The notes: generated from the sequence alone by a model not told the origin. Positions 1,295-17,288 are shown, counted from the first letter of the stretch. The stretch: DNA of 64,000 nucleotides from Thiocystis minor (GCF_016653465.1 NZ_NHSQ01000142.1:1-64000); one strand, 5' to 3'. Numbers and translations are program-made.

Positions 1295-2383
1295 TCAGCG
1301 CGGTGGAATCAGCGTTTGTAGCGCCGCCCAGACCTGCTCGGTCGTGGTCTCCCAACTGAATCGCTGGAGCGTCTGCGGGCGCGCGATGTTTGCACGCAAG
1401 CGACCCTGATGCCGGATCACCTGGGCGAGGGCGTCGGTCAGGGCGGTGACATCGCCGGGTGGCGCCAGATAGCCGTTCTCGTCCGGGGTAATGAGGGCGG
1501 GGATTCCGCCCACCTGCGAGCCCACCACCGGACAGCCGGCGGCGAGTGCCTCAGCCAGCACCATGCCAAAGGATTCCGCGCTCGTGAGGCTCGGCAGCAC
1601 GGTGGCGAGGGCGGAGGCGTACTCATCGCCCAGTTTGCGCCGATCCTGGATCGTGCCCGGAAAGCGCGCGCCGGGATAGGCGCGGCGCGGGATGGCGCCC
1701 ACCGCGATCAGCTCCAGATCCGGCTGCGCGGCGCGCAGCCGACGCCAGGCGCGATACAGCACGTCAAAACCCTTGCCGGGCGCGTCGGCCTTGCCCACGA
1801 ATAACAGATAAGGCGGCGCGTCCGCGCGGCGCTGTCCCCGCGCGATGGCCGCATCGACCCCAGGCGGGGCGTAAAAGACGGGGAGGCGCTCCCATTCGGC
1901 CAGCCAGGGCGAGGCCGCGCGATAGGCGGGGCTGCTGATCAGCAGCGCACTGGCGCGGGCGATGGTACCGCGTCCGATGAGGCGGTAATACAGCTCGCCA
2001 AGCCGGCGCTTGAGCCATGCCGCGCCGGTCACGTCGCTGTGGTAGACCAGACAGACCGGAATTTTCAGCCGTGCGGCGCGGCGCACCGCGACATCGACCA
2101 GACCGGGCACGGTGAAGTGGGCATAGATGACATCGGGGCGCTGCGTATGCAGCAGGCGGTCGATCTGGCGCGGCCAGGCGGGATGATAGCCGCCGCTGAA
2201 GAGACGCCACGGCGGATGCAGGACGCTGGGATCTCCAGCATCGGCATGGAGAAAGGTCAGCTCCAAGCCGCGCTGACGCAGACGCGAGGCGGTTTCATGT
2301 AAATAGCGCTCGGCGCCGCCGACCTGCGGGTCGCCATACTCCGAGACGGTCAGTACTTTCAAGCCGTTTCCCGAAAAACTCAT
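1295..2383 (-). CDS. Glycosyltransferase family 4 (GT4)
   Basis: A 362-residue GT-B fold enzyme. The N-terminal half has GGAERYLHETASRLRQRG, the acceptor-side GG.E motif of GT4 proteins, and the middle has LLFVGKADAPGKGFDVL. The C-terminal half has SAESFGMVLAEALAAGCPVV, the E-x7-E nucleotide-sugar site. It should add a sugar to a lipid-linked or growing glycan on the cytoplasmic face of the membrane. It is the last gene of the minus-strand polysaccharide series and is separated from the next GT4 gene by a 185-base gap that contains a dispersed repeat. Donor and acceptor cannot be told from sequence. Confidence 0.9.
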   Translation of the reverse strand: MSFSGNGLKVLTVSEYGDPQVGGAERYLHETASRLRQRGLELTFLHADAGDPSVLHPPWRLFSGGYHPAWPRQIDRLLHTQRPDVIYAHFTVPGLVDVAVRRAARLKIPVCLVYHSDVTGAAWLKRRLGELYYRLIGRGTIARASALLISSPAYRAASPWLAEWERLPVFYAPPGVDAAIARGQRRADAPPYLLFVGKADAPGKGFDVLYRAWRRLRAAQPDLELIAVGAIPRRAYPGARFPGTIQDRRKLGDEYASALATVLPSLTSAESFGMVLAEALAAGCPVVGSQVGGIPALITPDENGYLAPPGDVTALTDALAQVIRHQGRLRANIARPQTLQRFSWETTTEQVWAALQTLIPPR

Positions 2384-2568: not shown

Positions 2569-3843
2569 TCAGTGCGAGACGCCAGTCATCAGCTCATGCA
2601 GACGCGCGGCCCCTGCGGCCCAGGAATACTCCTGCACCGACAGCGGCGATAAATCGAACGACGGATCGAGTGTGCCGTTACGCCAGCGCATCTGGAGTTC
2701 GCGAATGCTGGCGGCGATGGCCGAGGGGTCCGCCGCGACGCCTCGCCCATGGCGCGTGCTTTCCAGAAAGCCGGGCACCGGATCGGTCGGACTGCCCGCG
2801 ATGTGCAGGATCGGACGGCCCGCGCCGAGATATTCGTAGACCTTGCCGGGCACCTGATCGTCCTGACGGTTGCCGACATTCAGCAAGAGGTTGGCACGCC
2901 GTTGCAATGCCAGACAGACCGCGTGCGGACGTTTGCCGAGCAGCGTCACCCGCTCGCCGAGCTGACTCAGGGCGGCAACGAAAGGCCCCATGTCGCCCAC
3001 AAAGATCGTCTGCACGTTTTCCAGTCGAGCCAGCGCCTCGATCAGCGGCCCTGGTTCGCGAAAGCCTTGGTAAAACGTGCCCGTATACAAGAGCACGAAA
3101 CGGTCAGCCGGCCACGCGGGCGCGGGTTCCGTCTCGGTCAGCCGATCGCGATGATCGAAGCCCTGGCGAATCAGGAGCAATTTCTCGGGCGGCACACCAT
3201 GTCGCTCCGTCAGGCGCCAGGCGATGGGCTCGTTGGTCACCAGCAGGGCGTCGGCACGCTTGCAGACGCGACGCTCCAGCGCTCGGTCCAGGGCAACGCG
3301 CCAGCGCGGCGTATAGGGCGCGACCAGCGGATCGGCCAGATCGGCGATCCAGGGAATGCCCCAGTGTCGCTGGGCGCGCAAACCCAGCAGCAAATCGACT
3401 CCAGGCTCGTGCGAGCTGATGACCAGATCGTAGTGACGCTCGGCGTGCAACCGGCGTGCGGCGCGCCACGCGAAGGGCAGCCATTCGGTGCGGACATCGG
3501 GAATCAAGATCTGATCGAGCAGACGTCTTGCCGTTCGGTAGAGGCGCTCGGAGAGGGGTAACATCGGCGCTGGCTCGACTTGCCTGTTCTCGTCCACTGC
3601 GGCGCCTGCCCGTAAACGGGCCGCGAGCCAGCCTGAAAAGCCAATGAAGGGGCCTGGAAAACAGCGGTGGATGCAGACGTGTTTTTCGAAGGTTGGATCA
3701 TACCCCCAGAGGTTACGGAAAGAGGGGGTCAGGACATCGATCTCGACGCCCAGTCTGGCCAGTTCGTTGGCGAGGTAATACCAACGCAAGGACTGTGCGG
3801 CGAGGATGGGCGGGAATTCATAGGCAAAGAGCAGGACTCGCAT
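2569..3843 (-). CDS. Glycosyltransferase family 4 (GT4)
   Basis: The protein is 424 residues from MRVLLFAYEFPPILAAQS, a normal GT4 N-terminal strand and loop. An upstream in-frame start at 3906 would add 21 residues and is less likely. The N-terminal domain contains YDLVISSHEPGVDLLLG. The C-terminal domain has VLLYTGTFYQGFREPGPLI and PGKVYEYLGAGRPILHIAG, the K.YEY.GAG.P nucleotide-sugar loop. It is predicted to transfer an activated sugar during surface-glycan assembly. The gene starts 77 bases after the algJ-like stop codon and is clearly more GC-rich than the acetylation genes upstream, so the composition break falls here. Confidence 0.88.
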   Translation of the reverse strand: MRVLLFAYEFPPILAAQSLRWYYLANELARLGVEIDVLTPSFRNLWGYDPTFEKHVCIHRCFPGPFIGFSGWLAARLRAGAAVDENRQVEPAPMLPLSERLYRTARRLLDQILIPDVRTEWLPFAWRAARRLHAERHYDLVISSHEPGVDLLLGLRAQRHWGIPWIADLADPLVAPYTPRWRVALDRALERRVCKRADALLVTNEPIAWRLTERHGVPPEKLLLIRQGFDHRDRLTETEPAPAWPADRFVLLYTGTFYQGFREPGPLIEALARLENVQTIFVGDMGPFVAALSQLGERVTLLGKRPHAVCLALQRRANLLLNVGNRQDDQVPGKVYEYLGAGRPILHIAGSPTDPVPGFLESTRHGRGVAADPSAIAASIRELQMRWRNGTLDPSFDLSPLSVQEYSWAAGAARLHELMTGVSH

Positions 3844-3920
3844 GAGGAAATTAAACAATTTTATTACAAAAGCCAGCAGAAAAGCGTGGTCACCTGTGGC
3901 GAGCAAAAGATCATTATCTT

Positions 3921-5060
3921 TTACTCAGGAGGCGGCTGCTGGAACCAGTCTGACAAAGAATTCCGCTCAACAGAAGTAATAATAATATAATCTGGCTTGA
4001 ATGTGAGCACCATCTGTGAAAATATTTCTGAGGTTGCCTTATTGTAATGCAATTGAAGTATTTCGCTGAAAGTAGCAGCCATCAAAGGAGATATTTTTGT
4101 TCCAAATGAATCACGTAACCAAAGTAGGCGTGCCTTATTAAGTGCATTCGGTGATTTAACTAATATAGGTTTGGGTGATTCCTTTAATATTAAGTTGTTA
4201 GTCCGCGCCATGCTCTTTTTTGTCTGAAAGTTTATATGTTCGACAAATAAAGGCCGGCCAATATCTATTTTCATTGGCACCTCAATATCGCTTAAAATGT
4301 CCTTCATCCAAAGAAAACCAGCGATATCCCCACCAGGGATATCGCGTCTATCCATAAATCGCACATGATTTGGCGTCAACCACTGAATTCCTAAAAACCC
4401 CGATTTTCTGATCGTTTCCGCCAAATCAAGATAGGCTATCCATGCTCCAAAGCTATTCCAATGCGAATCGGTTCGATAGTAAAGCGACTTGCCATATTGT
4501 GATTTTGCCTCCAATAAAGCAGCTTTATTATCGATATAAATCGCTGGATTAACCCGTTCACGAAGCTTGTTTGTTGCATGATCTGCCACTGGCTTTGCCC
4601 ATTGGGGGAGATATTCAGGATAGATGGTGCTTTTGTCAGAAGCCAATTGGATGCGATACAATTTTACCCCGTTTTTTTTGAGCCAGAGCCACCAACTAGT
4701 GGTGTTAACTGCAATGCGGTTAATTTTGACAAGATTATCTTTCGTTGCCGATATTCTTTTAACTGTTATTGATTTGGCATAAGCGTCACCGAGAAAAAGC
4801 CAGCCCTCTCGGCCAATAACAAACTGCTTTGGGCTGATTGAGATCCCAAAATAATAACCTATTTTACCTAGCCATGGCATTAAAAAATCAATATTATAAA
4901 AACCCTTTCCTTGCCACATCTTGCTCTCTTTAAGCGTTGCGCTTGTCTCCTTTTTGCTGTATTTGACGACGTTTAAAGTCGCCAATGAAAAATTTAATGC
5001 TGGCACGACCATGATCGCAAAGCCAGTAATAAAAAAGAAAGCAATAACAGATCTTTTCAT
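3921..5060 (-). CDS. AlgJ/AlgX-like SGNH-fold polysaccharide O-acetyltransferase
   Basis: A 379-residue protein with an N-terminal membrane anchor (residues 5-27). It carries GREGWLFLGD, then YYRTDSHWNSFGAW with the Asp-x-His pair of the AlgJ/AlgX family, and LLWLRDSFGTKI with the catalytic Ser. In alginate biosynthesis such proteins act in the periplasm and transfer acetyl groups brought across by AlgI. The next gene upstream, ending 10 bases away, is an AlgI-type MBOAT protein, so the two form an acetylation pair. Codon use is AT-rich compared with the rest of the window, suggesting acquisition by transfer. The substrate is probably not alginate, since no alginate polymerase genes are present here. 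Confidence 0.85.
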   Translation of the reverse strand: MKRSVIAFFFITGFAIMVVPALNFSLATLNVVKYSKKETSATLKESKMWQGKGFYNIDFLMPWLGKIGYYFGISISPKQFVIGREGWLFLGDAYAKSITVKRISATKDNLVKINRIAVNTTSWWLWLKKNGVKLYRIQLASDKSTIYPEYLPQWAKPVADHATNKLRERVNPAIYIDNKAALLEAKSQYGKSLYYRTDSHWNSFGAWIAYLDLAETIRKSGFLGIQWLTPNHVRFMDRRDIPGGDIAGFLWMKDILSDIEVPMKIDIGRPLFVEHINFQTKKSMARTNNLILKESPKPILVKSPNALNKARLLWLRDSFGTKISPLMAATFSEILQLHYNKATSEIFSQMVLTFKPDYIIITSVERNSLSDWFQQPPPE

Positions 5061-5069
5061 GCGCCAAAC

Positions 5070-6572
5070 TCAAAAATTAAAATAAAGAAAAACGGTGCTA
5101 GTGGAAATCATCATTACATAAAAGGCGGCACTAAAAAGCAACGAGCAAGCTATTAGCTTAGCTGTTCGACGACTAGGCATTCTCATAAATTCCTGAGAAT
5201 TCATCTGTGAAATTATAATAAATGCTATTGTAATAGCGACGTAGCTTGGCAAATTAGCGGCTATTCCGCTTGGCAACAAAAAAGTTAGCTTGTCTATCAA
5301 TATCCCACCCCAAGCCAATCGCTCTGTAGGAATAATATTTACTGGAAAGTGTAGGATGGAATGCAGGTCTAGCATGCCAGTTAGCACTCGTAAAGCATCG
5401 GTCATCGATTCCGCGCGAAAAAAAATCCAAGTAGTATTAATAAAAAGAAAAGTAACTAACCAGGCCAGCCAGTTCGGCAACCGTCCTCCCATTTTTCTCC
5501 ATATCCTATGTATAATCAACGCAAATCCATGCAGCGACCCCCAGATGACAAACATCCAGCTAGCCCCGTGCCAAAGTCCACCTAACACGAAGGTAACAAA
5601 AAGATTGACATAAACTCGCCCAGTAGAACGGCGGTTTCCGCCCAATGGTATATATAAATAATCTTTAAGATAGCGGCTTAAGGTCATATGCCAGCGGTGC
5701 CAAAAGTCTTGGATATCCAAAGCTTTATATGGCGAATTAAAATTCAGCGGTAGCCAGATATTGAATAGTAATGCGGAGCCGATGGCCATGTCGCAATAGC
5801 CGCTGAAGTCGAAGTAAAGTTGAAAGGTATAAGATAAACTCGTTGCCCAAGCACTAAAAAAATCTAGATTACTATTACTATCGAAACCTAAATTAGCCCA
5901 AACCGCAAAGGTATCAGCGATAACTACTTTTTTAAAAAAACCGATACTGAAAATAAAAAAACCAGCAAAAAGATGTCGATAACGGATAGCCAACGTCCAC
6001 TTTGATTCAAATTGAGACATCATCTCTTTGTGATGAAGAATAGGCCCCGCAATTAAATGAGGGAAAAAAGTAACAAAAAGCATGTAATTTGTTAAGTTAT
6101 ATTCTTTTACTTTTCCTTGATAGCTGTCTACTAAATAAGCGATTTGTGTGAATGTAAAAAAACTCACACCTAACGGCAAAATAATATTTTGCAATTGCAC
6201 GTTTAAAGCAAAAGCTGTGCTCAGGTTATCCAGAAAAAAATTGGCATATTTATAATACCCTAGTAATCCAAGATTTGCCGCGATGCCAAAAGTTAGCAGT
6301 GTAGTTCGTGATAATTTTGGCTGTAGCGTTGAAATACCCTTATGAGCCATAGAGGGATCCGTCGCCAACACTGTACCGACTCCAAAATTAAATAAGATAG
6401 AACCTATTAGCAGCGGCAAATAAGCGATATTCCAGTACCCATAAAAGAAAAAACTCATGGCGACTAACCATATTTTAGCCGCAGGCACCATGCGATAATG
6501 GTTAAGCAAAAAGTAACCAAAAAAAGAGATTGGAAGAAAAATAAGAATGAATTCTGGGGAGCTGAAAATCAT
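5070..6572 (-). CDS. AlgI-type MBOAT O-acyltransferase
   Basis: A 500-residue multi-pass membrane protein of usual AlgI length. FHxxxH-like elements are absent, but the MBOAT core is clear: SYTFQLYFDFSGYCDMAIG, QDFWHRWHMTLSRYLKDY and VLGGLWHGASWMFVIWG with the invariant His. Family members take acetyl groups from a cytoplasmic donor and pass them across the membrane to a periplasmic transferase, here the adjacent AlgJ/AlgX-like protein. The start at 6572 gives the typical MIFSSPEFILIFLP N-terminus. The gene is AT-rich like its neighbours. Confidence 0.93.
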   Translation of the reverse strand: MIFSSPEFILIFLPISFFGYFLLNHYRMVPAAKIWLVAMSFFFYGYWNIAYLPLLIGSILFNFGVGTVLATDPSMAHKGISTLQPKLSRTTLLTFGIAANLGLLGYYKYANFFLDNLSTAFALNVQLQNIILPLGVSFFTFTQIAYLVDSYQGKVKEYNLTNYMLFVTFFPHLIAGPILHHKEMMSQFESKWTLAIRYRHLFAGFFIFSIGFFKKVVIADTFAVWANLGFDSNSNLDFFSAWATSLSYTFQLYFDFSGYCDMAIGSALLFNIWLPLNFNSPYKALDIQDFWHRWHMTLSRYLKDYLYIPLGGNRRSTGRVYVNLFVTFVLGGLWHGASWMFVIWGSLHGFALIIHRIWRKMGGRLPNWLAWLVTFLFINTTWIFFRAESMTDALRVLTGMLDLHSILHFPVNIIPTERLAWGGILIDKLTFLLPSGIAANLPSYVAITIAFIIISQMNSQEFMRMPSRRTAKLIACSLLFSAAFYVMMISTSTVFLYFNF

Positions 6573-6637
6573 CTAAAGATTATCCAAAATTGTTTTCCGA
6601 AAGCGTGGGCAGATTCGTTTTGAGGTTTAGGCAGCAT

Positions 6638-7816
6638 CTAACGCGCACGTAAAAACAAGACCCCGCGAACAAATTTCAATAGAGGACGTTCAAGGAATAA
6701 ATGAAAAAGCCAGCCACTAATAACGGCAATGACGCTTATGACGACAAAGAAAATCGCTATTGAAAACCCGTTATCAACTGTTACATGCTTCCTCAATATG
6801 AATATCAGGCCAAGCAGCAGGGGGTAATGAATTAGATAAATAGAATATGATGCATCGCCAAGTGAGGTGAGAATTTTTCTGTTCTGAATAAATGATTCAG
6901 CCCTATTCGATAGCGTAAAAAAAATCAACAGTGCGCCAGCGAGACCAAAACCAAAAAGCGGAATCCAATGAGTAAAATTTATAATTCCGCCGCCCCACAC
7001 CGCTAATGCCGTTGCGGAAAACAGGATAAGTCCCAATGTCCCAAGACTCCAAGCAAACCACTCTCGCCTGACAGTCTCAATATTTCGCATATGAATGAGC
7101 ATATAAGCGGTAAGCATGCCAATCCAGAAAAGAATGACATATTTACTGAAAACATAACGCGGGATAACGGGTATTTTAATCGAAAAAAACTGGGTCAATA
7201 AGACGCCTATTAGCCATAAGGATAATGCGAGGACGCCTAGCTTTCGGTTCAATATAAGGATAGAAAAAATAAAGTAAAAAAAAACTTCCATGGAAAGGGT
7301 CCAGCTGACGGGATTAATAAATTTCGGTGGCGGAAAAAATAAGTTAAGGTTCTGATAGATGAGCGTCGGCGTTATGTGTATCGGCATTATATTGATAACG
7401 AAAAGATACCAGAGCGAAATTAAAGTAAGCACTAGCCAATAATTCGGATAGATGCGTGAAAAACGCTTCTTTAAATAAGAAATTAACTTGGATGGACGGC
7501 CAATGTCATGATAATGAATGGTCACAATAATAAATCCACTCAACACAAAAAAAATATGAACTCCGGAAAAACCGAATAAAAAAAATCGGTTAAAAGGAGC
7601 CAAATTAAATTTGGAAGAACACAGCATAGTGGCGTGGAACAGAACAACTAAAATCGCCGCGACCCCGCGCAGAATCTGAATTGTATAAAGTTTATCCCCT
7701 CCCATTTTTGCATTGACTTGATTGTCCTTGACGCTTTGGCTGTCAATGTGGCTACCATCGACTTTGGTGAGCAGTCTTTTTTTATAATCATGATTTAATT
7801 CACAACTTGAATTCAT
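6638..7816 (-). CDS. Acyltransferase family 3 membrane protein (OafA/NodX type)
   Basis: About ten hydrophobic segments follow ILRGVAAILVVLFHATML, the Acyl_transf_3 start with the conserved R and H. SGVHIFFVLSGFIIV and KRFSRIYPNYWLVL come next, and SLGDASYSIYLIHYPLLL near the C-terminus is typical. It acylates sugars of surface glycans at the inner membrane. The frame is open further upstream into wecB (to 7990), but that extension reads as shadow sequence of wecB. I use the ATG at 7816; the ATG at 7705, closer to the first helix, is also possible. It is a second, independent acylation function besides AlgI/AlgJ. Confidence 0.87.
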   Translation of the reverse strand: MNSSCELNHDYKKRLLTKVDGSHIDSQSVKDNQVNAKMGGDKLYTIQILRGVAAILVVLFHATMLCSSKFNLAPFNRFFLFGFSGVHIFFVLSGFIIVTIHYHDIGRPSKLISYLKKRFSRIYPNYWLVLTLISLWYLFVINIMPIHITPTLIYQNLNLFFPPPKFINPVSWTLSMEVFFYFIFSILILNRKLGVLALSLWLIGVLLTQFFSIKIPVIPRYVFSKYVILFWIGMLTAYMLIHMRNIETVRREWFAWSLGTLGLILFSATALAVWGGGIINFTHWIPLFGFGLAGALLIFFTLSNRAESFIQNRKILTSLGDASYSIYLIHYPLLLGLIFILRKHVTVDNGFSIAIFFVVISVIAVISGWLFHLFLERPLLKFVRGVLFLRAR

Positions 7817-7850
7817 CGCGGTATCAACAAAATTGGACGAGAAGTAGTAG

Positions 7851-8951
7851 TCAAACAAACGAGGTGCGTAAAATTTCGCAAATCCGCGCGGCGGCCTTGC
7901 CGTCACCATAGGGCGACACGCCGCGCGCCATGGCGCGGTAGGCATCGGCATCATCGAGTAACCGCAGTGACTCCCGCACGATGGCGTCAAAGTCAGGCCC
8001 GACGAGTTTGACCACGCCTTCCGTTACCGCTTCCGGCCGCTCGGTCTCGCGCCGGAGCACCAGCACGGGTTTACCCAAGGCCGGCGCCTCTTCCTGCACG
8101 CCGCCGGAATCGCTCAAAATGAAGTGCGCCCGCTTCATCGCCGCGACAAACGGCAGATAATCCAGCGGCTCGCAGAGCTGGATGCGCGGATGACCGCCAA
8201 GCAGAGCGCAGGCGATTTCTTTCACGTTCGGATTGGGATGCACCGGATAGAGAAAGGTCACATCCTCGCGACGGTCAGCCAGATGACGGATGGCGCGGCA
8301 GATCTGTGCGAACGGCTCGCCGAAATTCTCGCGTCGATGCGCCGTCACCAGCACCAAACGCTGTCCCGACGGGATCGCGGGGGCGACGTCGTCGCAGCGT
8401 TCGGCAATATCGAGCAATGCGTCGATCACCGTGTTGCCGGTCACGAAGATCGCGTCTTCCGGCAGTGTCTCGGCTAACAGATTGCGTCGCGCCGACTCGG
8501 TCGGCGCAAAATGCCAGCGGGCGAGATTGCCGGCCACGATTCGGTTCATTTCCTCCGGAAAGGGATTGAACAGATCGCCGGTACGCAACCCGGCCTCCAC
8601 ATGACCGAAGGGGATGCGACGGTAGAAGGCCGCCAGCGCGGCGACCATCACCGTCGTCGTGTCGCCTTGAGCGAGAACGGCATCCGGCGCTTCGTCCTCG
8701 AAACAGGCGTCGAGGGCCGTCATCAGGCGCGCGGTCAGCGCCGGTAGGGTTTGATTGGGGCGCATGACATCGAGATCGATGTCGGGCACGATATCAAAGA
8801 GCGACAATACCTGATCCAGCATCTGTCGATGCTGGGCCGTGGCCAGTACGCGCACATTCACCCATGACGCTGCCTTCAATGCCAGGATGACCGGGGCCAT
8901 CTTGATGGCTTCCGGGCGGGTGCCGACGATGCAGAGAATCTTCTTTTTCAT
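7851..8951 (-). CDS. wecB: UDP-N-acetylglucosamine 2-epimerase, non-hydrolysing
   Basis: A 366-residue enzyme of standard length. It interconverts UDP-GlcNAc and UDP-ManNAc in the cytoplasm. Signatures are VGTRPEAIKMAPVI at the N-terminus, GDTTTVMVAALAAFYRRIPF, GHVEAGLRTGD, HRRENFGEPF and SDSGGVQEEAPALGKPVLVL. It is GC-rich, unlike the acyltransferase downstream and the sulfotransferase upstream. This suggests the island was assembled from pieces of different origin. No wecC (UDP-ManNAc dehydrogenase) is seen nearby, so the product may be used directly as ManNAc or oxidised by an enzyme encoded elsewhere. Confidence 0.95.
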   Translation of the reverse strand: MKKKILCIVGTRPEAIKMAPVILALKAASWVNVRVLATAQHRQMLDQVLSLFDIVPDIDLDVMRPNQTLPALTARLMTALDACFEDEAPDAVLAQGDTTTVMVAALAAFYRRIPFGHVEAGLRTGDLFNPFPEEMNRIVAGNLARWHFAPTESARRNLLAETLPEDAIFVTGNTVIDALLDIAERCDDVAPAIPSGQRLVLVTAHRRENFGEPFAQICRAIRHLADRREDVTFLYPVHPNPNVKEIACALLGGHPRIQLCEPLDYLPFVAAMKRAHFILSDSGGVQEEAPALGKPVLVLRRETERPEAVTEGVVKLVGPDFDAIVRESLRLLDDADAYRAMARGVSPYGDGKAAARICEILRTSFV

Positions 8952-9081: not shown

Positions 9082-9867
9082 TCAGATATAGTGATATTTC
9101 TCCATATATTCTGATGCGGAATTCAGCACATGGCTATTTTCTTGCGGCGTTAAATTCTGCTTCCATCTTGCTACAGATCTTTCGTTGAAATTAAACTGGG
9201 ATGTGTCATTTGGATTATGAAAATCAAAACCTTGCTTGTTTATAATAAGCTCTCGAAAATTATCGTCGATTTCTAGATCAAGCCAATCCATAATCGCTTC
9301 GAGTTTATCCATGTAGTCTTGAACGATATCTTCATAGCGAAGTGTGTAGATTCGAGAATGGTCGGTTGATTCGCAAAATTTTTCGTAATCATTAGCAATC
9401 TTACTCCATATCTTAAACGCTTCGTCCATGCCGCAGTCGTTCATTTTAATGATTGAACATATGGTATCCCGCGGGTCTCTCACGATATATACATATAATG
9501 AGTTTGGGTAAAGTCTTTCAAGAAATGGCAAGCATGCATTATGGTGAGGATGCTTGTCTCCCCAGTAACGTACATTATGACGATTTTCTGATTCACAGAT
9601 CTTTTGATAGAAAGAATTAATGATGCTTTTAGCTGCCTGCGCTAATTGTTCTGACCAGAGTTCCTGATATTCTTTTCCATAATAAATACCTGATTTTACT
9701 CCGTGTTTTGTGTTTTTGATGATGTGGTCAAATAAAAGAAAAGCTGCTGTTTCATAAGTTTGCACGATACCTGTATGGGTGTTTAAAAGCCGGGCAAGCA
9801 TCGTCGTTCCGCTACGCGGAACACCAAGAATAAACAGTGGGCGTGCATTTTCTAAGGCGTCCGACAT
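9082..9867 (-). CDS. Sulfotransferase family protein (Sulfotransfer_3 type)
   Basis: A 261-residue cytoplasmic protein. LFILGVPRSGTTMLARLLN at residues 12-30 is the PAPS 5'-phosphosulfate loop, and VYIVRDPRDTICSIIKM at about 130 contributes the 3'-phosphate-binding Arg and Ser. LRYEDIV follows, as usual for the family. It is AT-rich and lies between the trimodular sulfotransferase-glycosyltransferase gene and wecB on the same strand. It probably sulfates a sugar in the same glycan, but which one cannot be told. Confidence 0.88.
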   Translation of the reverse strand: MSDALENARPLFILGVPRSGTTMLARLLNTHTGIVQTYETAAFLLFDHIIKNTKHGVKSGIYYGKEYQELWSEQLAQAAKSIINSFYQKICESENRHNVRYWGDKHPHHNACLPFLERLYPNSLYVYIVRDPRDTICSIIKMNDCGMDEAFKIWSKIANDYEKFCESTDHSRIYTLRYEDIVQDYMDKLEAIMDWLDLEIDDNFRELIINKQGFDFHNPNDTSQFNFNERSVARWKQNLTPQENSHVLNSASEYMEKYHYI

Positions 9868-9944: not shown

Positions 9945-12900
9945 TTATGATTCATGTGCATGAGGAGTCCATTCCCCCCATTTTTTTTCATAGTAAGCTT
10001 GGTTTGTTTTCCAAATATCGTGATATTCACCCGTTTCAATCAGTTTCTTGAATGCCGCCTGACCAAAGTGGTGAACAAAAGAATCCTTAGCGCACACGAC
10101 ACGATACCCAAGCTGCTTGATCCGATTGCTGTAATCGTCATCTTCAAACATACCGATGCCAAACGTCTCGTCCAGGAAACCGACTTGATCATAGACATCC
10201 CGACGCATCACGACACAGAACATCGCGAGCATGCCGATATCGAATGCCTGTCCCGCATGCGTGCGCATGTGGTCCACTGCGAAATGTTCCATTTCATCCA
10301 TCGTCAGATAGGGGACATCAATTTTCGCTTCATTTCCAACGAAGTTGGTCACAGGGCCAACCAGGCCGATCTTGCTATCTCGTAAATGTCTAAGCAGCGG
10401 TGCAAGCCAGCCGCGTGGCGTGACGGTATCGTTATTGAGCAGCACAAGGTAATCACCGGTCGCGATCGCCAATCCCTGATTGTTTGCTGCCGCGAAGCCT
10501 CGATTCTGATTGTTGAGGATCACCTTGATATGATCGTGACGTTCCTGCAGATATTGCAGATAACCAGACGTGCCATCTCGTGAATCGTTATCCACGACGA
10601 TGATTTCGTAATTTGGATAAGTGGTGTTGCGCAATAGTCTTTCGAGACAAAGCTGGCTCAATTCCAGATTTTTATAGGTGATGATAATGATGCTGACACG
10701 CGGGTATGCCTGGTTGATCGCATCCGATGTGGATGCGTAGCGATGTCGCCAATCGTTTGTGCGGGCGAGTTCGATGCGGCGCTGACGCAAGGCCGGGCTA
10801 TTCTCCGCCAATGCGCACCGGATTTGCTCGACGAAGGTTTCGGGTCGATCCGCAAAATACAGATAGTCCTTATAAATATCTAATTCTTTGAGAGGAACAG
10901 AGACGACTGGTTTGCCCGCGCTGACATATTCATAAAACTTCACCGGATCTACGGCGTGGGTAACCTGACTTAGCCGAAATGGAACCAGGCAAACATCAAA
11001 GTGGTACAAATACTTCGGCATGTCCGTATAAGGCCGGCGGCCTAGCAGATGCACGTTTGGCAGGTCGTCTAAACCTTCGAGGTTTGTCACAAAGACATCC
11101 CCGATTAAAACGAAATGGCAGTCGGGGAGCGCCCTCGCTGCCGCGGCCATCAGACCCAGATCGACCCATTCCGCAAGCGCACCATAGAAGCCGACGATAG
11201 GATGAGCAAGGTCGCCAAGGATGCGATTGGGTTGGCTGTGCTGTCGAAAAAAATCAAAATCCACGCCATTGCGAACCAGGACACAGCGCGGATTATTAAC
11301 ACGCCATTTTTCCTCAAGCAGAGCGGCGGTCACCGTCACGATATCGCTTTTTCGCACGAGTTCGATTTCGGCGTCGAGCAGCGGCTTGCCAATACCCGGA
11401 AAATCCTCCCACTCATCCATGCAGTCGTACAGCACGCGCCAATCCCACGACTCGCGCAGGCGTAGCACGAGTGGCGCCCAGAATGCCAGATGCACATGGC
11501 AGACCGCATCGACAATGCCAAAAGCATCACGCAGGCGACCGAGAGATTGCGCAAACAAATCGGTATTTGCGGTATCGAGTACAGTCGAATAACGATCTGC
11601 TAGATTGTGGGCCATCAATTCGACTTCATAGATGCGCTCCGCCACCAGGGTTGCGCGAAAACCCTGAGCATCATCCGGTGCGAGGCCGCGTGAAGCGATG
11701 ACATAGAAAACCCGATGCCCATGACGTGCGAACTGGGCGGCAAGCTGCTGCGGCCGCTGATAACGTGCATCCCAGTCGATATTAGCAAAGCAGATCAGAT
11801 CGTAGGATGTCAGATTGGATCTGTCTGAATCCGCGATCCCTGCGATGGATGTAGCGGGAACGAATTCGGTTGCCGGCAACATGGTGGATCTTGGCAGCAT
11901 GTCCCAGGTTCGGGCATTCTTGGTCCAATCTTGAAAATAGCGAAGCAGGTTTTGAATATGCTCTGCACCGAGCACTACGCGTCGCCGCCAAAGCAGTTTC
12001 TCGACGAAAGAAACTGAGCGATGACCTAAGCGCCAACGCCATGACCGCAGGGTCGCGGTAAAGCAGCGGTCAATTTCATCCAGCCAGCTTGTCAACAATT
12101 TTAACTCGCCGGACAGAAATGTAATCTCTCCGTCTTTGGCGACTTCATTCGCATAGAGTTGTCGCAGTTGCGCATTCAATGCGGTGATTTGCTGCGCGAT
12201 CGCCTCGATCTCGTTCTGTTTGATGTTTAGCGCCAATTGGTGTTGAGCAGACGCTTGCGCGGACTCGTGTTGAGTCATCTCCAAACGCTGCTGGGTATCG
12301 CTAAACGCCTGCTGGCTGATTTCCATCTCAGTGGTGAGTGCGGCGATCTGCTCGCCCTTGGCATTTTCGGCCACCCGGGTTTCATGCAGTTGGGCGGTGA
12401 GGTCGGCGAGTTTGGCGGTGAGCGCCGCGATCTGCTCACCCTTAGCATTTTCGGCCACCCGGGTTTCATGCAGTTGGGCGGTGAGGTCGGCGAGTTTGGC
12501 GGTGAGCGCCGCGATCTGCTCACCCTTGGCATTTTCGGCCGCTCGGGTTTCATGCAGTTGGGCGGTGAGGTCGGCGAGTTTGGCGGTGAGCGCCGCGATC
12601 TGCTCACCCTTGGCATTTTCGGCCGCTCGGGTTTCATGCAGTTGAGCGGTGAGGTCGGCGAGCTGGGTCTCTCGCGTTGCCAGGTTTGCGGTCAATCCCG
12701 CCGCTTCGCCCCGCGCTGCGTCCAACTGTTGCCGCAAGTCGTCAACCGCCATGCGGCCAGTCTCGATCTCAAGCTGCAAGGACTGCGCATGTTCTTGAGC
12801 GCGGCTCAACGTCTCGCGCGCCTGGGCCTCATGCTCATGCTGACGCCGATAGTCATGAAGAACTTCGGTTGCTCCCGCCGACAGTTTGGGAATGGTCTGC

Positions 12901-13649
12901 CAGTCGAGCGCGGAGCCGTCCTCCATGGCATTTGCCAAATGACGCTGCGAAAGATTCAAGATGCCATCGGCATCCTCAAGACTCGCGCGTTGATGCTGCA
13001 AACGGCTTTCCACGAAGGCACCAATCTCGCGCTCCGACGGCATGCGCAAACCAACCACATCGGTCAGGCACAAGCGTTCGTACAGATCTCGCAGCGTTGC
13101 GATGGGATCCTGGATGAGCCGCGCATAGGAGATCCCGATGCGCGGTAAACCTCGGGAGACGGTCAGGGCGGCAAGCGTGTATTGCTCCCATAAGGCGACG
13201 CCTCTCATCAGGGATACGCCATCTCGTGCCTGCAACGACTGGGCGATCTCCAGCGGCGAACGATGCGGCAGCACGCATACGGGGACTTCAAGCAGGGGGC
13301 GCCAAACCGGTAGCGTCAGGCACAGGCGCGGATCCTTGAGTACCCAGGGTCGACGAGCGTCCATCTGAAAAACGACCTGCTTCGCCTGTGTACGAAGCGC
13401 ATCGATTTCGGCCTGCCGCTCTAGCTTAACCGGCGAGAAGTCCGCCACATCGTCCCAAGTGCAATCAACAGACGCCAGCAGACCGTCGTTCAGCTGCGAG
13501 ACATCCGTCCGCTCCCAGAATCCCTTCTCGTTGTCGGTCGCCGGTCCACCGATGAGGTGCGCCGGACCGATCTCGGCACCCATCATGGTAATCAGGCGCG
13601 TGATGGCGGAAGTGCCGGAGCGATGCATGCCGAGTACGATGATCTGCAT
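9945..13649 (-). CDS. Trimodular sulfotransferase / coiled coil / GT4 / GT2 fusion protein
   Basis: A 1234-residue protein. Residues 1-245 form a sulfotransferase: GMHRSGTSAITRLI is the PAPS loop and LPHRSPLEIAQSLQ the 3'-phosphate motif. Residues about 265-520 are coiled coil, including four near-identical 28-residue repeats at 330-441. Residues about 615-955 are a GT4-like GT-B domain (YQRPQQLAAQFARHGHRVFY; DPVKFYEYVSAGKPVVSVP). Residues 985-1215 are a GT2 domain (VSIIIITYKNLELSQLCLERL; LLNNDTVTP; GIGMFEDDDYSNRIKQ). Two sugar-adding modules and one sulfating module on a rigid rod suggest ordered building of a sulfated glycan on the cytoplasmic face. The end of the reading frame is AT-rich while the N-terminal part is GC-rich. 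Confidence 0.9.
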   Translation of the reverse strand: MQIIVLGMHRSGTSAITRLITMMGAEIGPAHLIGGPATDNEKGFWERTDVSQLNDGLLASVDCTWDDVADFSPVKLERQAEIDALRTQAKQVVFQMDARRPWVLKDPRLCLTLPVWRPLLEVPVCVLPHRSPLEIAQSLQARDGVSLMRGVALWEQYTLAALTVSRGLPRIGISYARLIQDPIATLRDLYERLCLTDVVGLRMPSEREIGAFVESRLQHQRASLEDADGILNLSQRHLANAMEDGSALDWQTIPKLSAGATEVLHDYRRQHEHEAQARETLSRAQEHAQSLQLEIETGRMAVDDLRQQLDAARGEAAGLTANLATRETQLADLTAQLHETRAAENAKGEQIAALTAKLADLTAQLHETRAAENAKGEQIAALTAKLADLTAQLHETRVAENAKGEQIAALTAKLADLTAQLHETRVAENAKGEQIAALTTEMEISQQAFSDTQQRLEMTQHESAQASAQHQLALNIKQNEIEAIAQQITALNAQLRQLYANEVAKDGEITFLSGELKLLTSWLDEIDRCFTATLRSWRWRLGHRSVSFVEKLLWRRRVVLGAEHIQNLLRYFQDWTKNARTWDMLPRSTMLPATEFVPATSIAGIADSDRSNLTSYDLICFANIDWDARYQRPQQLAAQFARHGHRVFYVIASRGLAPDDAQGFRATLVAERIYEVELMAHNLADRYSTVLDTANTDLFAQSLGRLRDAFGIVDAVCHVHLAFWAPLVLRLRESWDWRVLYDCMDEWEDFPGIGKPLLDAEIELVRKSDIVTVTAALLEEKWRVNNPRCVLVRNGVDFDFFRQHSQPNRILGDLAHPIVGFYGALAEWVDLGLMAAAARALPDCHFVLIGDVFVTNLEGLDDLPNVHLLGRRPYTDMPKYLYHFDVCLVPFRLSQVTHAVDPVKFYEYVSAGKPVVSVPLKELDIYKDYLYFADRPETFVEQIRCALAENSPALRQRRIELARTNDWRHRYASTSDAINQAYPRVSIIIITYKNLELSQLCLERLLRNTTYPNYEIIVVDNDSRDGTSGYLQYLQERHDHIKVILNNQNRGFAAANNQGLAIATGDYLVLLNNDTVTPRGWLAPLLRHLRDSKIGLVGPVTNFVGNEAKIDVPYLTMDEMEHFAVDHMRTHAGQAFDIGMLAMFCVVMRRDVYDQVGFLDETFGIGMFEDDDYSNRIKQLGYRVVCAKDSFVHHFGQAAFKKLIETGEYHDIWKTNQAYYEKKWGEWTPHAHES
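12327..12662 (-). repeat. Four tandem 84 bp in-frame repeats (coiled-coil rod)
   Basis: Four copies of 84 bases lie head to tail inside the fusion gene. Each encodes the 28-residue unit starting LADLTAQLHETR and ending GEQIAALTA, which is four heptads. Copies differ by A or V at position 13, plus end effects in the last copy. Near-identity at DNA level suggests recent duplication and a copy number that could change by recombination. Confidence 0.95.
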
Positions 13650-14079: not shown

Positions 14080-14898
14080 ATGAACGATTGCGTGACCGCT
14101 ACCGCTCGACCGGACGGACAGACGAAGTGGCATCTCATCGATCCCCGCATGATCGATCTCATCCTCTACAAGACCTATGCCGACCTGCGCGCCGAGGCCG
14201 CCAAGACCTATATCAATTACCTCTGGTGGGTGATCGACCCTATCCTCTCCATGCTGGTGTTCTATCTGGTATTTGGCCTGATCTTCCAGCGTGGTGGCGA
14301 GGGCTTCGTCCCCTTTCTGCTCGTCGGTTTGGTGATCTGGAATTGGTATAAGCAGACGCTCTCGCATGCCGGCAACTCGATCCTCGCTGGCAAAGGTCTG
14401 ATGAATCAGGTGCATGTGCCAAAACTGGTGTTTCCGACAGTGACCCTGCTCACGGATCTCACCAAATTTGGCTTTGTGTTTGTCCTGTTGCTGATCTTTC
14501 TCTGGCTGTCAGGCGATGGGATTGGTCGCGCCTATCTCGCCTTGCCCCTCGTCCTGGCGGTGCAATTGCTCTTCAGCGTGGCGCTGGCCTTTCTCCTCGC
14601 CGCCGTGGTGCCCTATCTCCCCGACCTCAAATTCCTGGTGGAGAATCTGCTGCAACTGCAATTCTTTGCCTCGGGTGTCTTCTTCTCGACGGACGACATT
14701 TCCGAACGCTACCAGTTCTGGTTCTATCTCAACCCCATGGCGAGTCTGATTCACGATTACCGCAACATTCTGCTCCACAACGAGTGGCCGGCCTGGGGGC
14801 GCTTGTCGTTTATCGCCCTGCTGTCGCTCGCCTTGCTGACCCTGGTCGTGAAGCTGATTCAGAGGCATGACCGCGACTACCCCCGAGTGGTCCGCTGA
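14080..14898 (+). CDS. wzm: ABC-2 type polysaccharide exporter permease (Wzm-like)
   Basis: A 272-residue inner-membrane protein with about six helices. YADLRAEAAKTYINYLWWVIDPILSMLVF is cut here to its recognisable core KTYINYLWWVIDPILSM, typical of ABC-2 polysaccharide permeases (Wzm/KpsM/TagG type). LNPMASLIHDYRNILL is the conserved C-terminal loop. It should form the channel that moves the finished lipid-linked glycan to the periplasm. The ATPase gene begins at its stop codon. This is the transport half of the divergent island. Confidence 0.92.
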   Translation: MNDCVTATARPDGQTKWHLIDPRMIDLILYKTYADLRAEAAKTYINYLWWVIDPILSMLVFYLVFGLIFQRGGEGFVPFLLVGLVIWNWYKQTLSHAGNSILAGKGLMNQVHVPKLVFPTVTLLTDLTKFGFVFVLLLIFLWLSGDGIGRAYLALPLVLAVQLLFSVALAFLLAAVVPYLPDLKFLVENLLQLQFFASGVFFSTDDISERYQFWFYLNPMASLIHDYRNILLHNEWPAWGRLSFIALLSLALLTLVVKLIQRHDRDYPRVVR

Positions 14899-14899
14899 G

Positions 14900-15643
14900 A
14901 TGACCGCGACAGAGATCATCCCGCTCTTATCGCTGGACCGGGTCGGCCTGGCCTTTGGCCAGGGTCGCCTCGGCTTCGGTCGCGCCACCCCCTTCTGGGT
15001 TCTGAAAGACGTCAGTTTCGATCTCCGCCACGGCGAGACGCTGGGCGTCATCGGTCGCAACGCGGCTGGCAAGAGTACCTTGCTTCGGTTGTTGGCGGGC
15101 ATTATCACGCATGATCGCGGCGTCTTGACGAATCACGGTTACACGGCGGTCTTGCTGTCATTACAAACTGGATTCGTGCCGCATTTGACTGGACGTCAGA
15201 ATGCCATTCTCAGCGGTTTGCTGTTGGGTTTGCGGCGTCGTGAGATCGAATCCCGAATGGAACATATCATTGAGTTCTCTGAACTGGGTGGCTTTATCGA
15301 TCAGCCCTTGACCACCTATTCCTCAGGGATGCGGGCCAGATTGGGATTTTCCGTGGCTTATCAGCTCGACCCTGACATTCTGCTGATCGACGAGACGCTC
15401 GGCGTCGGAGACGAAGAATTCAAAGTCAAGTCCGCGAATGCAATGCGCGAGCGTATTCGCTCGGACAAGACCATTGTTTTGGTTTCGCACAACGCGGGGA
15501 CCATTCGGGAGCTATGTGATCGGGCAATCTGGATCGAAGAAGGGGTCACGCGCCTGGTGGGTTCTGTGGAAGACGTGGCCGCGGCCTATCATGCGGAGCT
15601 GAATCGCCGAAAAGTCGATCATGTCTCTGGTGTGCGCGCATAA
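14900..15643 (+). CDS. wzt: ABC polysaccharide exporter ATPase (Wzt-like)
   Basis: A 247-residue ATPase. GVIGRNAAGKSTLLRLLAG is Walker A (with Ala in place of the usual Gly), YSSGMRARLGFSVA is the ABC signature, and ILLIDETLGVGDEEF is Walker B. It powers export by the adjacent permease. The ATG at 14900 follows the permease stop (14896-14898) by one base. An in-frame ATG at 14867 would overlap the permease by 32 bases and cannot be excluded. The protein ends soon after the ATPase core and lacks the C-terminal carbohydrate-binding domain of O-antigen Wzt proteins that read the chain end, so it is closer to the KpsT/TagH layout. Confidence 0.92.
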   Translation: MTATEIIPLLSLDRVGLAFGQGRLGFGRATPFWVLKDVSFDLRHGETLGVIGRNAAGKSTLLRLLAGIITHDRGVLTNHGYTAVLLSLQTGFVPHLTGRQNAILSGLLLGLRRREIESRMEHIIEFSELGGFIDQPLTTYSSGMRARLGFSVAYQLDPDILLIDETLGVGDEEFKVKSANAMRERIRSDKTIVLVSHNAGTIRELCDRAIWIEEGVTRLVGSVEDVAAAYHAELNRRKVDHVSGVRA

Positions 15644-15662: not shown

Positions 15663-17288
15663 ATGACCCAACGCTTAACCCTTGTGCTTTTGACGATGCT
15701 GACGGCAACTCAGGCGCCAGCCCAGAGTACCTACCTTGCCGCAACCTGCACCGATGTCTGTCTCTACGGCGCGACCAGCAACGGGGCTAACTGCACGCTC
15801 TGGGACGCCGCCGTCGGCGATTGGGTCAGGAACCCCACGGACGGTCCGGGCGAGCTGCACAATCGGGCGCGCCATTACGCCACGGTTCTGCATCGGTGGA
15901 TGCTGCCCGCCGGGGGCGTGATGAGTACTCGGTTCACCGATGCGTCGCTGACCGAGGTCGCGGACTATGGCGGCCGACGCGATTCGGCCATCTGGACCGG
16001 CGCCTATCTGGCCTCCGAGGCGCTGCGGTTTCTGTCCACGGGCGCCCCGGATGCCGCGCGTTCCATCGACGAGACGGTCGCGACCCTGCACCGTTGGTGG
16101 AGGATTCCGGGAGACCCTGGTTATCTCGCCCGCTATGCCGCGCCCGCAGATAGCCCGGCGCCGGTGCAGGCGATCTTGAGCGCGGACGATCCGGAAGTCC
16201 ATCGGGAGGTTCCGTTCGAGGATGCGCTCTGGCATTGGCGCGGCAATATCAGCCGCGATCAGTATCAGGGCGTGCTGCTCGGCTACTCGCTGGCCTATCA
16301 GGCCACCAGTAACCCCGAGGTTCGCGAGACCATTCGTCAGGATGTGGTGGAGTTCGTCGAACAACTGATGAGCGGCGAGCGCAGGCCGGTGCGGATCAGC
16401 GTTAACGGCCGTGCAACGACGCGGGAAGTCAGCATTCCTTATGCGGTGTTCAGCACGGCCGACGCACCCGACGGCATTCCGTCGCTGACGTTCCAGACCG
16501 ACCCCTTCTCCGCCGCCGGAGAAGGGGTGCTCTTTTTCGCGCCCAACGCCACCGATCTGCTGAATCAAATCTTTGGTTTCAGCCCCTTCCCCAGTCTCCC
16601 GCAACCGACACAGGCGATCCAACTGGCCGCGATCTTCCGGGTCGCGCTCCAGGTGACCGACGACGTTCCGGCCTACGCCAGCCGGCGCCAGGCGATCGCC
16701 GAGCATTACGAGCGCAAGGTCGGCGCATGGCTGGAGATCGCCACGGGCTGGCGGAATACGAACCGCTGCGACGAAGGCTATTTTGGGCTCAATATCGGCT
16801 TTATGCCGCTGTTCAACTGGGTTCGGCTGGAAACCGATCCGGTGCGTCAGGAGCGCTTGCGGCAGGAGGTTTTGCGCGATGCGCTGTGGGCCGAGGTGGC
16901 GGAGCACAAGAATGTGTTTTTTGCGCTGATCTATGGTTCGCAGGCGCCGCTGGAAGACGATGTGCCGGCGGTGCTCGATGAGCATGTGGCGCAACTGGCG
17001 CTGTTTCCGACCGCGCCCAACTGGGCGTTGCCGCGGGATTTGCGGGGGATCTATCCGGAAAGCACCCAATGTCCAGGGATTTCGGCCGTTGCCGTGAATG
17101 TGGACGAACGGGTTCCCGCGACTTTCGTATGGGAGCGCAACCCCTGGAAGCTCTACGATCCGGGGACACCGAACCAGATGTATCCCGGAATCGATTATCT
17201 GCTGGCGTACTGGATGGGCCGGTTTTACGGTTTCATCGAGGATGACGCGACCGGCACCTGTCTGTGGTGGTCAGAGGCCGGGACTTGA
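15663..17288 (+). CDS. Secreted protein of unknown function, probable alpha/alpha-toroid fold
   Basis: A 541-residue protein with a signal peptide (hydrophobic residues 5-20, AQA-like cleavage after APAQ). The repeated pattern of paired helices with motifs such as SAIWTGAYLASEALRFL, HRWWRIPGDPGYLAR and NISRDQYQGVLLGYSLAY resembles (alpha/alpha)6-toroid glycan-active enzymes. I cannot assign a family or name catalytic residues. It starts 20 bases after wzt on the same strand with GGAAAG upstream. A co-transcribed periplasmic or outer-surface role in trimming or handling the exported glycan is therefore plausible, but that is inference. Confidence 0.7.
   Translation: MTQRLTLVLLTMLTATQAPAQSTYLAATCTDVCLYGATSNGANCTLWDAAVGDWVRNPTDGPGELHNRARHYATVLHRWMLPAGGVMSTRFTDASLTEVADYGGRRDSAIWTGAYLASEALRFLSTGAPDAARSIDETVATLHRWWRIPGDPGYLARYAAPADSPAPVQAILSADDPEVHREVPFEDALWHWRGNISRDQYQGVLLGYSLAYQATSNPEVRETIRQDVVEFVEQLMSGERRPVRISVNGRATTREVSIPYAVFSTADAPDGIPSLTFQTDPFSAAGEGVLFFAPNATDLLNQIFGFSPFPSLPQPTQAIQLAAIFRVALQVTDDVPAYASRRQAIAEHYERKVGAWLEIATGWRNTNRCDEGYFGLNIGFMPLFNWVRLETDPVRQERLRQEVLRDALWAEVAEHKNVFFALIYGSQAPLEDDVPAVLDEHVAQLALFPTAPNWALPRDLRGIYPESTQCPGISAVAVNVDERVPATFVWERNPWKLYDPGTPNQMYPGIDYLLAYWMGRFYGFIEDDATGTCLWWSEAGT

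Follow-up and report, generated by a model that had tools for sequence, protein, structure and literature searches.

One gene in the 64,000-nucleotide stretch of Thiocystis minor DNA analyzed here (the window) joins a predicted sulfotransferase, a coiled-coil rod, a GT4 glycosyltransferase, and a GT2 glycosyltransferase in a single polypeptide. The protein is probably the dual-glycosyltransferase polymerase of a Wzm/Wzt-dependent surface polysaccharide, with built-in length control and a sulfotransferase that acts as a terminator placing one sulfate on each chain. In the mechanism proposed, the C-terminal GT4 and GT2 domains, working at the inner membrane face, would alternately add two sugars to a lipid-linked chain, while the rod would hold the sulfotransferase, at the N-terminus, a constant distance away. 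Only chains reaching the sulfotransferase would be sulfated, at the nonreducing end, and this end sulfation would halt growth, giving one sulfate per chain and making the coil a ruler. A broader proposal, which we find slightly easier to doubt than to accept, is that bacteria use terminal sulfation to stop chain growth at a length measured by a ruler. Sulfotransferase and coil would form a portable module, interchangeable with methyltransferase caps, that sets the length of ABC-exported chains even where Wzt bears no CBM, and the rod would lengthen or shorten as four-heptad DNA repeats are gained or lost.

The gene and the parts of its product lie as follows, with residue conservation given for 28 sequences:

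9945..13649, minus strand: gene, sulfotransferase-coiled coil-GT4-GT2, 1,234 aa (stop codon 9945-9947; full-length ortholog L029)
12915..13649, minus strand: sulfotransferase domain, residues 1-245 (PF13469 6e-5, below cut-off; AF2 pLDDT 94.6; fold matches)
13608..13631, minus strand: PAPS 5'-phosphosulfate loop GMHRSGTS, residues 7-14 (G7, G12, and S14 invariant; M8, H9, R10, S11, and T13 nearly invariant)
13512..13535, minus strand: DNEKGFWE motif, residues 39-46 (N40 and G43 invariant; W45 and E46 at least 90%)
13326..13337, minus strand: KDPR motif, residues 105-108 (all four at least 90%)
13236..13262, minus strand: 3'-phosphate-binding R130-x-P-x5-S138 (R130 invariant; P132 and S138 at least 90%)
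12147..12878, minus strand: coiled-coil rod, residues 258-501 (modeled helices 258-370 and 376-501; heptad scan)
12333..12662, minus strand: 84-bp tandem repeat within the rod, 3.9 copies, 96% matches, unit LADLTAQLHETRAAENAKGEQIAALTAK, equal to four heptads
11904..12119, minus strand: helical linker, residues 511-582, with SWRWRLG motif and amphipathic helix 562-582 (conserved in L029 and L049)
10734..11801, minus strand: GT4 (GT-B fold) domain, residues 617-972 (PF13692, Glyco_trans_1_4, 1.2e-9; fold model)
9948..10712, minus strand: GT2 (GT-A fold) domain, residues 980-1234 (PF00535, Glycos_transf_2, 5e-30; fold model)

The minus-strand frame is open from an ATG at 13649 to the stop codon at 9945, which bears out the unbroken 1,234-residue frame reported, with no strand given, in a preliminary description of this DNA. 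Pfam searches and structure prediction, both proposed there, recovered the four parts it had read in one polypeptide, with the sulfotransferase Pfam score below cut-off. The PAPS loop was found at residue 7, as described, and the 3'-phosphate motif placed near residue 128 corresponds to R130 through S138; the long coiled coil appeared as two long model helices with a heptad pattern, and both glycosyltransferase domains were backed by Pfam matches and folds. An architecture search across genomes, also proposed, showed that the order recurs, giving three proteins with the full arrangement: that of the window, L029 from Competibacteraceae (63% identical overall, 66% in the sulfotransferase, and 79-80% in GT4/GT2), and L010/L049 from G044, a genome in the same family as the window (63% in the sulfotransferase, 36% in GT4, and 48% in GT2). 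Because L029 and L010/L049 share the order in one frame, a frameshift or assembly chimera was ruled out. Third-position GC steps from 0.71 in the sulfotransferase to 0.57 in GT4 and 0.53 in GT2, but the recent join that this step might suggest was given no weight, since the equivalent join in L029 lacks it.

Fold and PAPS motifs together identify residues 1 to 245 as a predicted PAPS-dependent sulfotransferase. The window copy scores 23.8 bits against Pfam Sulfotransfer_3 (PF13469), where the curated cut-off is 27, and relatives exceed that cut-off (L049, 32.1; L051, 28.3; L053, 27.3; L052, 31.9; L043, 38.6); a chance match was ruled out by these scores and by the fold. The closest solved structures to the AF2 model are TPST1/2 (Z 15.3), the olefin synthase sulfotransferase (15.2), and the CurM sulfotransferase (14.4), and heparan 3-O sulfotransferase (3-OST) is also matched, all with Z of 11 to 15. 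A P-loop kinase was rejected, as the loop has no GK[ST] and dephospho-CoA and shikimate kinases came up only further down the Foldseek results, at E about 0.05. Within the conserved DNEKGFWE motif, E46 is a candidate catalytic base. An APS kinase, for making PAPS, is encoded elsewhere in the genome. That the domain is inactive, or acts on some other target such as a primer, lipid, or protein, leaving a scaffolded polymerase, is very improbable: the subthreshold Pfam score of the window copy speaks for it, but the PAPS loop, KDPR, and R130/S138 are kept in 90 to 100% of the 28 relatives, and the fold matches active sulfotransferases. PAPS-binding residues, whose absence had been raised earlier as the case against a sulfotransferase, are thus present and conserved in a domain with a predicted sulfotransferase fold.

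At the other end of the protein, the GT4 domain most closely resembles the folds of MshA, GumK, and BshA and has a conserved PVKxYEYxSxGKPV motif. Its best named relative is TuaH, at a score far under the cut-off (98.6 versus 550 bits). The GT2 domain has GalNAc-T-like folds, with NND and FEDDDY conserved.

Heptad scanning and the model agree that an extended coiled coil stands between the putative chain-end enzyme and the polymerase glycosyltransferases. The heptad pattern covers residues 255 to 451 and 471 to 538, and pLDDT in the rod block is mostly 74 to 86. The monomer model breaks the coil at residues 371 to 375, so the rod may fold as a hairpin. As a straight parallel coil, its 244 residues at 0.149 nm each would span about 36 nm. 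Each 84-bp repeat encodes a 28-residue unit, and most differences between units fall at third codon positions. An 84-bp repeat, unrelated in sequence to that of the window, is also present in the coil of the L029 ortholog. Both sets of repeats preserve the heptad register and are of separate origin; the rod therefore changes in length by whole heptads. This fits a ruler with length steps of four heptads, although coil repeats alone are no proof of measuring. Between rod and GT4, the linker helices are modeled at low confidence. The amphipathic helix at residues 562 to 582, near the base of the coil, is a candidate membrane contact; its hydrophobic moment is 0.66 near residue 565, a value that globular segments of the same protein equal.

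The genes around the polymerase include a transporter pair and further polysaccharide functions:

14080..14898, plus strand: Wzm-type ABC-2 permease, divergent from the gene (PF01061 2.7e-11)
14867..15643, plus strand: Wzt-type ATPase, 258 aa, without a C-terminal CBM (nearest NCBIfam, galactan export Wzt)
9082..9867, minus strand: second, free-standing sulfotransferase (PF13469 2e-32; 58% identical gene in the L029 cluster)
7851..8951, minus strand: WecB-type UDP-GlcNAc 2-epimerase (PF02350 1e-116)
6638..7990, minus strand: acyltransferase 3 (PF01757 4e-30; TTG start overlaps WecB)
5070..6572, minus strand: MBOAT O-acyltransferase (PF03062 4e-34)
3921..5060, minus strand: AlgX-like SGNH protein (PF16822 3e-13)
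2569..3906, minus strand: GT4 glycosyltransferase (relatives in L029, 49%, and L050, 58%)
1295..2383, minus strand: GT4 glycosyltransferase (relative in L050, 56%)

The wzm and wzt genes lie divergently upstream, and the second sulfotransferase, WecB, acyltransferase 3, MBOAT, AlgX-like, and two GT4 genes lie downstream on the same strand as the polymerase gene. The preliminary description had passed over the neighboring Wzm/Wzt and the free-standing sulfotransferase gene, as well as the 84-bp repeat of 3.9 copies. The presence of WecB points to ManNAc, or a derivative of it, in the proposed polymer, and the true start of acyltransferase 3 probably lies further in. GC content is 0.39 to 0.52 in most 2-kb windows at about 4 to 11 kb and 0.61 to 0.67 in most of the remainder; low GC is usual for imported surface-polysaccharide clusters. 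Around the L029 gene are wzm, wzt, a second sulfotransferase (58%), wecB (73%), and one GT4 (49%).

Wzm and/or Wzt adjoin the gene in the window and at nine other loci (L029, L049, L051, L053, L042, L043, L085, L087, and L088), which places it in ABC-transporter-dependent polysaccharide assembly. No transporter was seen in the flanks examined of the remaining large sulfotransferase proteins, several of 1,500 to 2,600 aa, and the association is therefore frequent, not universal. A Pfam search of the window Wzt for a CBM (Wzt_C) gave no match, nor did a Pfam search for a hidden CBM in the 541-aa open reading frame behind wzt, whose product is probably exported, given its signal-peptide-like start. 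The Wzt proteins of six relatives (L029, L049, L053, L085, L087, and L043) likewise have no CBM, and Wzt_C is present only in L042, L051, and L088.

The missing end-reading CBM in these seven Wzt proteins counts against termination, since in all reviewed terminated systems the CBM of Wzt reads the chain end (PMC11231755). In the CBM-less group, either the cap is recognized by other means or, as in Klebsiella O1/O2, export does not depend on it. For this reason the protein is not filed in the WbbB/WbdD class, and it most likely works like a member of it. The same seven transporters would suit a merely decorative terminal sulfate, with chain length governed, as in Klebsiella O1/O2, by the coupling between synthesis and export; in O1, Wzt is likewise without a CBM and the end cap, a terminal pyruvate, is decorative (PMC11231755). 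This alternative is distinctly unlikely, given that a long coil with register-keeping repeats is the stated marker of ruler systems (PMC11231755).

How the sulfotransferase domain is distributed bears on what it does at the chain. Among 369 sampled genomes of the class, 9 carry it (E of 1e-35 or less), the window's own included, always in frames of 1,090 to 1,681 aa. In seven loci it is attached to other glycosyltransferase combinations beside Wzm and/or Wzt (L051, L053, L042, L043, L085, L087, and L088). Conversely, a homologous GT4-GT2 cassette, about 38 to 53% identical, carries an N-terminal methyltransferase in four proteins (L030, L034, L036, and L090); a scan of L030, L034, and L036 detected a coil in L030 and L036 and none in L034. 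Five more proteins have the cassette with little N-terminal to it (L032, L033, L089, L091, and L092). By analogy with known systems, the methyltransferases on this cassette are putative terminators.

Phylogenies of the two parts disagree. In the cassette tree, L036, which is of the methyltransferase type, joins the window protein and L029 (99/97), and L049 falls with cassettes from Azospirillum and Paraburkholderia (100/99). An AU test rejected the three sulfotransferase-type cassettes as one clade (p-AU 1.1e-44), so cap and polymerase have different histories and sulfotransferase and methyltransferase caps have been swapped on one cassette; the tree gives no direction for the exchange. In the sulfotransferase tree, by contrast, the window, L029, and L049 domains form a group with support of 94/80, which does not reach the starred level. 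This group is nested in a clade of six (100/100), and the remaining members of that clade are joined to different glycosyltransferase combinations. Because the sulfotransferase domains group while their cassettes do not, the cap is a portable module. Separate histories are expected of an interchangeable end cap and are hard to square with an enzyme adapted to a single repeat unit.

These results also weigh on the mechanism first suggested for this protein, in which the sulfotransferase would act on internal repeats during polymerization, two sugars and one sulfate per repeat, with the coil a mere tether. Every activity does sit in one chain, Wzt lacks the CBM needed for reading a cap, and bacterial capsules with sulfated repeats are known, such as that of Cobetia marina with Rha2S (PMC11766843). 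The notion of a spacer-bearing polymerase that adds two sugars is supported. Sulfation of each repeat is nevertheless unlikely: in sequence, the coil widely separates the sulfotransferase from the glycosyltransferases, and the long rod would keep it away from growing repeats; in other bacteria a methyltransferase holds its position on the same polymerase cassette; one sulfotransferase clade serves polymerases with differing glycosyltransferase sets; the neighboring free-standing sulfotransferase, conserved in L029, could do such work; and characterized proteins that share the layout have a distal enzyme that caps each chain a single time (PMC11231755).

Chain-end sulfation is favored here by two precedents. 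In Klebsiella pneumoniae O12, O7, and O4 and Escherichia coli O9a, the terminator sits at the far end of the coil and the polymerase at or near the membrane end, and only chains reaching the terminator are capped; coiled coils of this WbbB/ORF6-O7/WbdD class act as rulers, and methyltransferases are among its known terminators (PMC11231755). In animals, HNK-1 sulfotransferase ends the matriglycan made by LARGE1, a sulfate stop for a dual-glycosyltransferase polymerase (PMC10955480). From this layout and this sulfate stop, the sulfotransferase is held to cap the chain once.

If this is true, sulfate would be added to Kdo, methyl, and methyl-phosphate among the groups that terminate surface polysaccharide chains in bacteria, in parallel with the terminal sulfation of animal matriglycan. 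A sulfotransferase domain heading a long glycosyltransferase protein would then point to a single charged group at the end of each chain rather than a sulfated polymer, and sulfated-polysaccharide gene clusters would be read differently, for example, in granular-sludge Competibacteraceae, the source of L029. The 84-bp repeats would be a directly editable ruler.

The preliminary description did not class this order of domains among described architectures. The layout of cap enzyme, coiled coil, and two polymerase glycosyltransferases is in fact known; the sulfotransferase as cap is new as far as found, none having been described in that position in the literature searched, which left out most subscription journals. 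The proteins of methyltransferase-coil-GT4-GT2 type from Acidobacteriota, Anaerolineaceae, and Paraburkholderia (L030, L036, and L090, and also L034, in which the scan found no coil), among which no characterized member was found, share the homologous GT4-GT2 cassette and carry a methyltransferase where the window protein has a sulfotransferase. LARGE1 and HNK-1 sulfotransferase are alike in working, with a terminal sulfate that ends the product of a dual-glycosyltransferase polymerase (PMC10955480), but they are separate Golgi proteins with other glycosyltransferase families, and homology is not claimed. In E. coli O9a WbdD, too, the cap enzyme sits at the distal tip of a coil, and this coil measures chain length, but the cap is methyl-phosphate and the polymerase, WbdA, is a separate protein. 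K. pneumoniae O7 ORF6 (methyltransferase-kinase, CBM, coiled coil, GT2, GT2) has the same order of cap, coil, and two glycosyltransferases (PMC11231755), with other cap chemistry; a kinase or CBM domain was not found in the window protein, and one of its glycosyltransferases is a GT4. K. pneumoniae O12 WbbB consists of a GT99 Kdo transferase, a coiled coil, and two polymerase glycosyltransferases, GT102 and GT103. The window protein differs in its sulfotransferase cap, its GT4 and GT2 domains, and its CBM-less Wzt, and like WbbB it is a single protein of a Wzm/Wzt pathway with an N-terminal chain-end enzyme, a central coil, and two C-terminal glycosyltransferases (PMC11231755).

Immediately downstream of the gene for the 1234-residue fused polymerase lies the second sulfotransferase gene of the cluster, and acylation-type genes and an ORF behind wzt also belong to the window:

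window 3921-7990 (-), three consecutive acylation-type genes (AlgX-like, MBOAT and acyltransferase 3)
window 9082-9867 (-), free-standing Sulfotransfer_3 enzyme
window 15663-17288 (+), 541-aa ORF directly after wzt, with a start resembling a signal peptide

The free-standing Sulfotransfer_3 gene is also present in the Competibacteraceae ortholog locus (58% conserved), and its product is a candidate enzyme for sulfation of the repeat units or of some other site. The run of acylation-type genes suggests that the polymer carries O-acetylation or other acyl decoration. Searches of Pfam and NCBIfam with the 541-aa ORF returned zero matches; on the opposite strand it is overlapped by an ORF of 464 aa.

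Relatives of the polymerase domains and of the Wzm/Wzt transporter occur in other arrangements:

L086:6413-11269 (+), 1619-aa protein with a sulfotransferase of the fused polymerase's type at residues 431-653
L031:4678-10662 (+), 1995-aa protein with the GT4-GT2 cassette, Deltaproteobacteria/Myxococcota MAG
L092:5200-9908 (+), separate 638-aa GT4-GT2 cassette protein and overlapping 931-aa GT2/GT4 protein, Azospirillum argentinense
L049:7021-10580 (+), Wzm, then two Wzt-like ATPase genes, genome G044
L032:2977-4641 and L033:2827-4614 (-), Wzt ATPase with methyltransferase domain, Acidobacteriota

Because the sulfotransferase of L086 is central, preceded by a GT4-like domain, this type is not always N-terminal. 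In L031, an additional GT2-like match (about 442-620) lies N-terminal to the cassette, and the A. argentinense pair represents a split version of the architecture. The Wzm and two Wzt-like genes of G044 precede its fused polymerase. In the Acidobacteriota clusters the cassette is bare, and the methyltransferase domain occupies the place of the CBM in other Wzt proteins.
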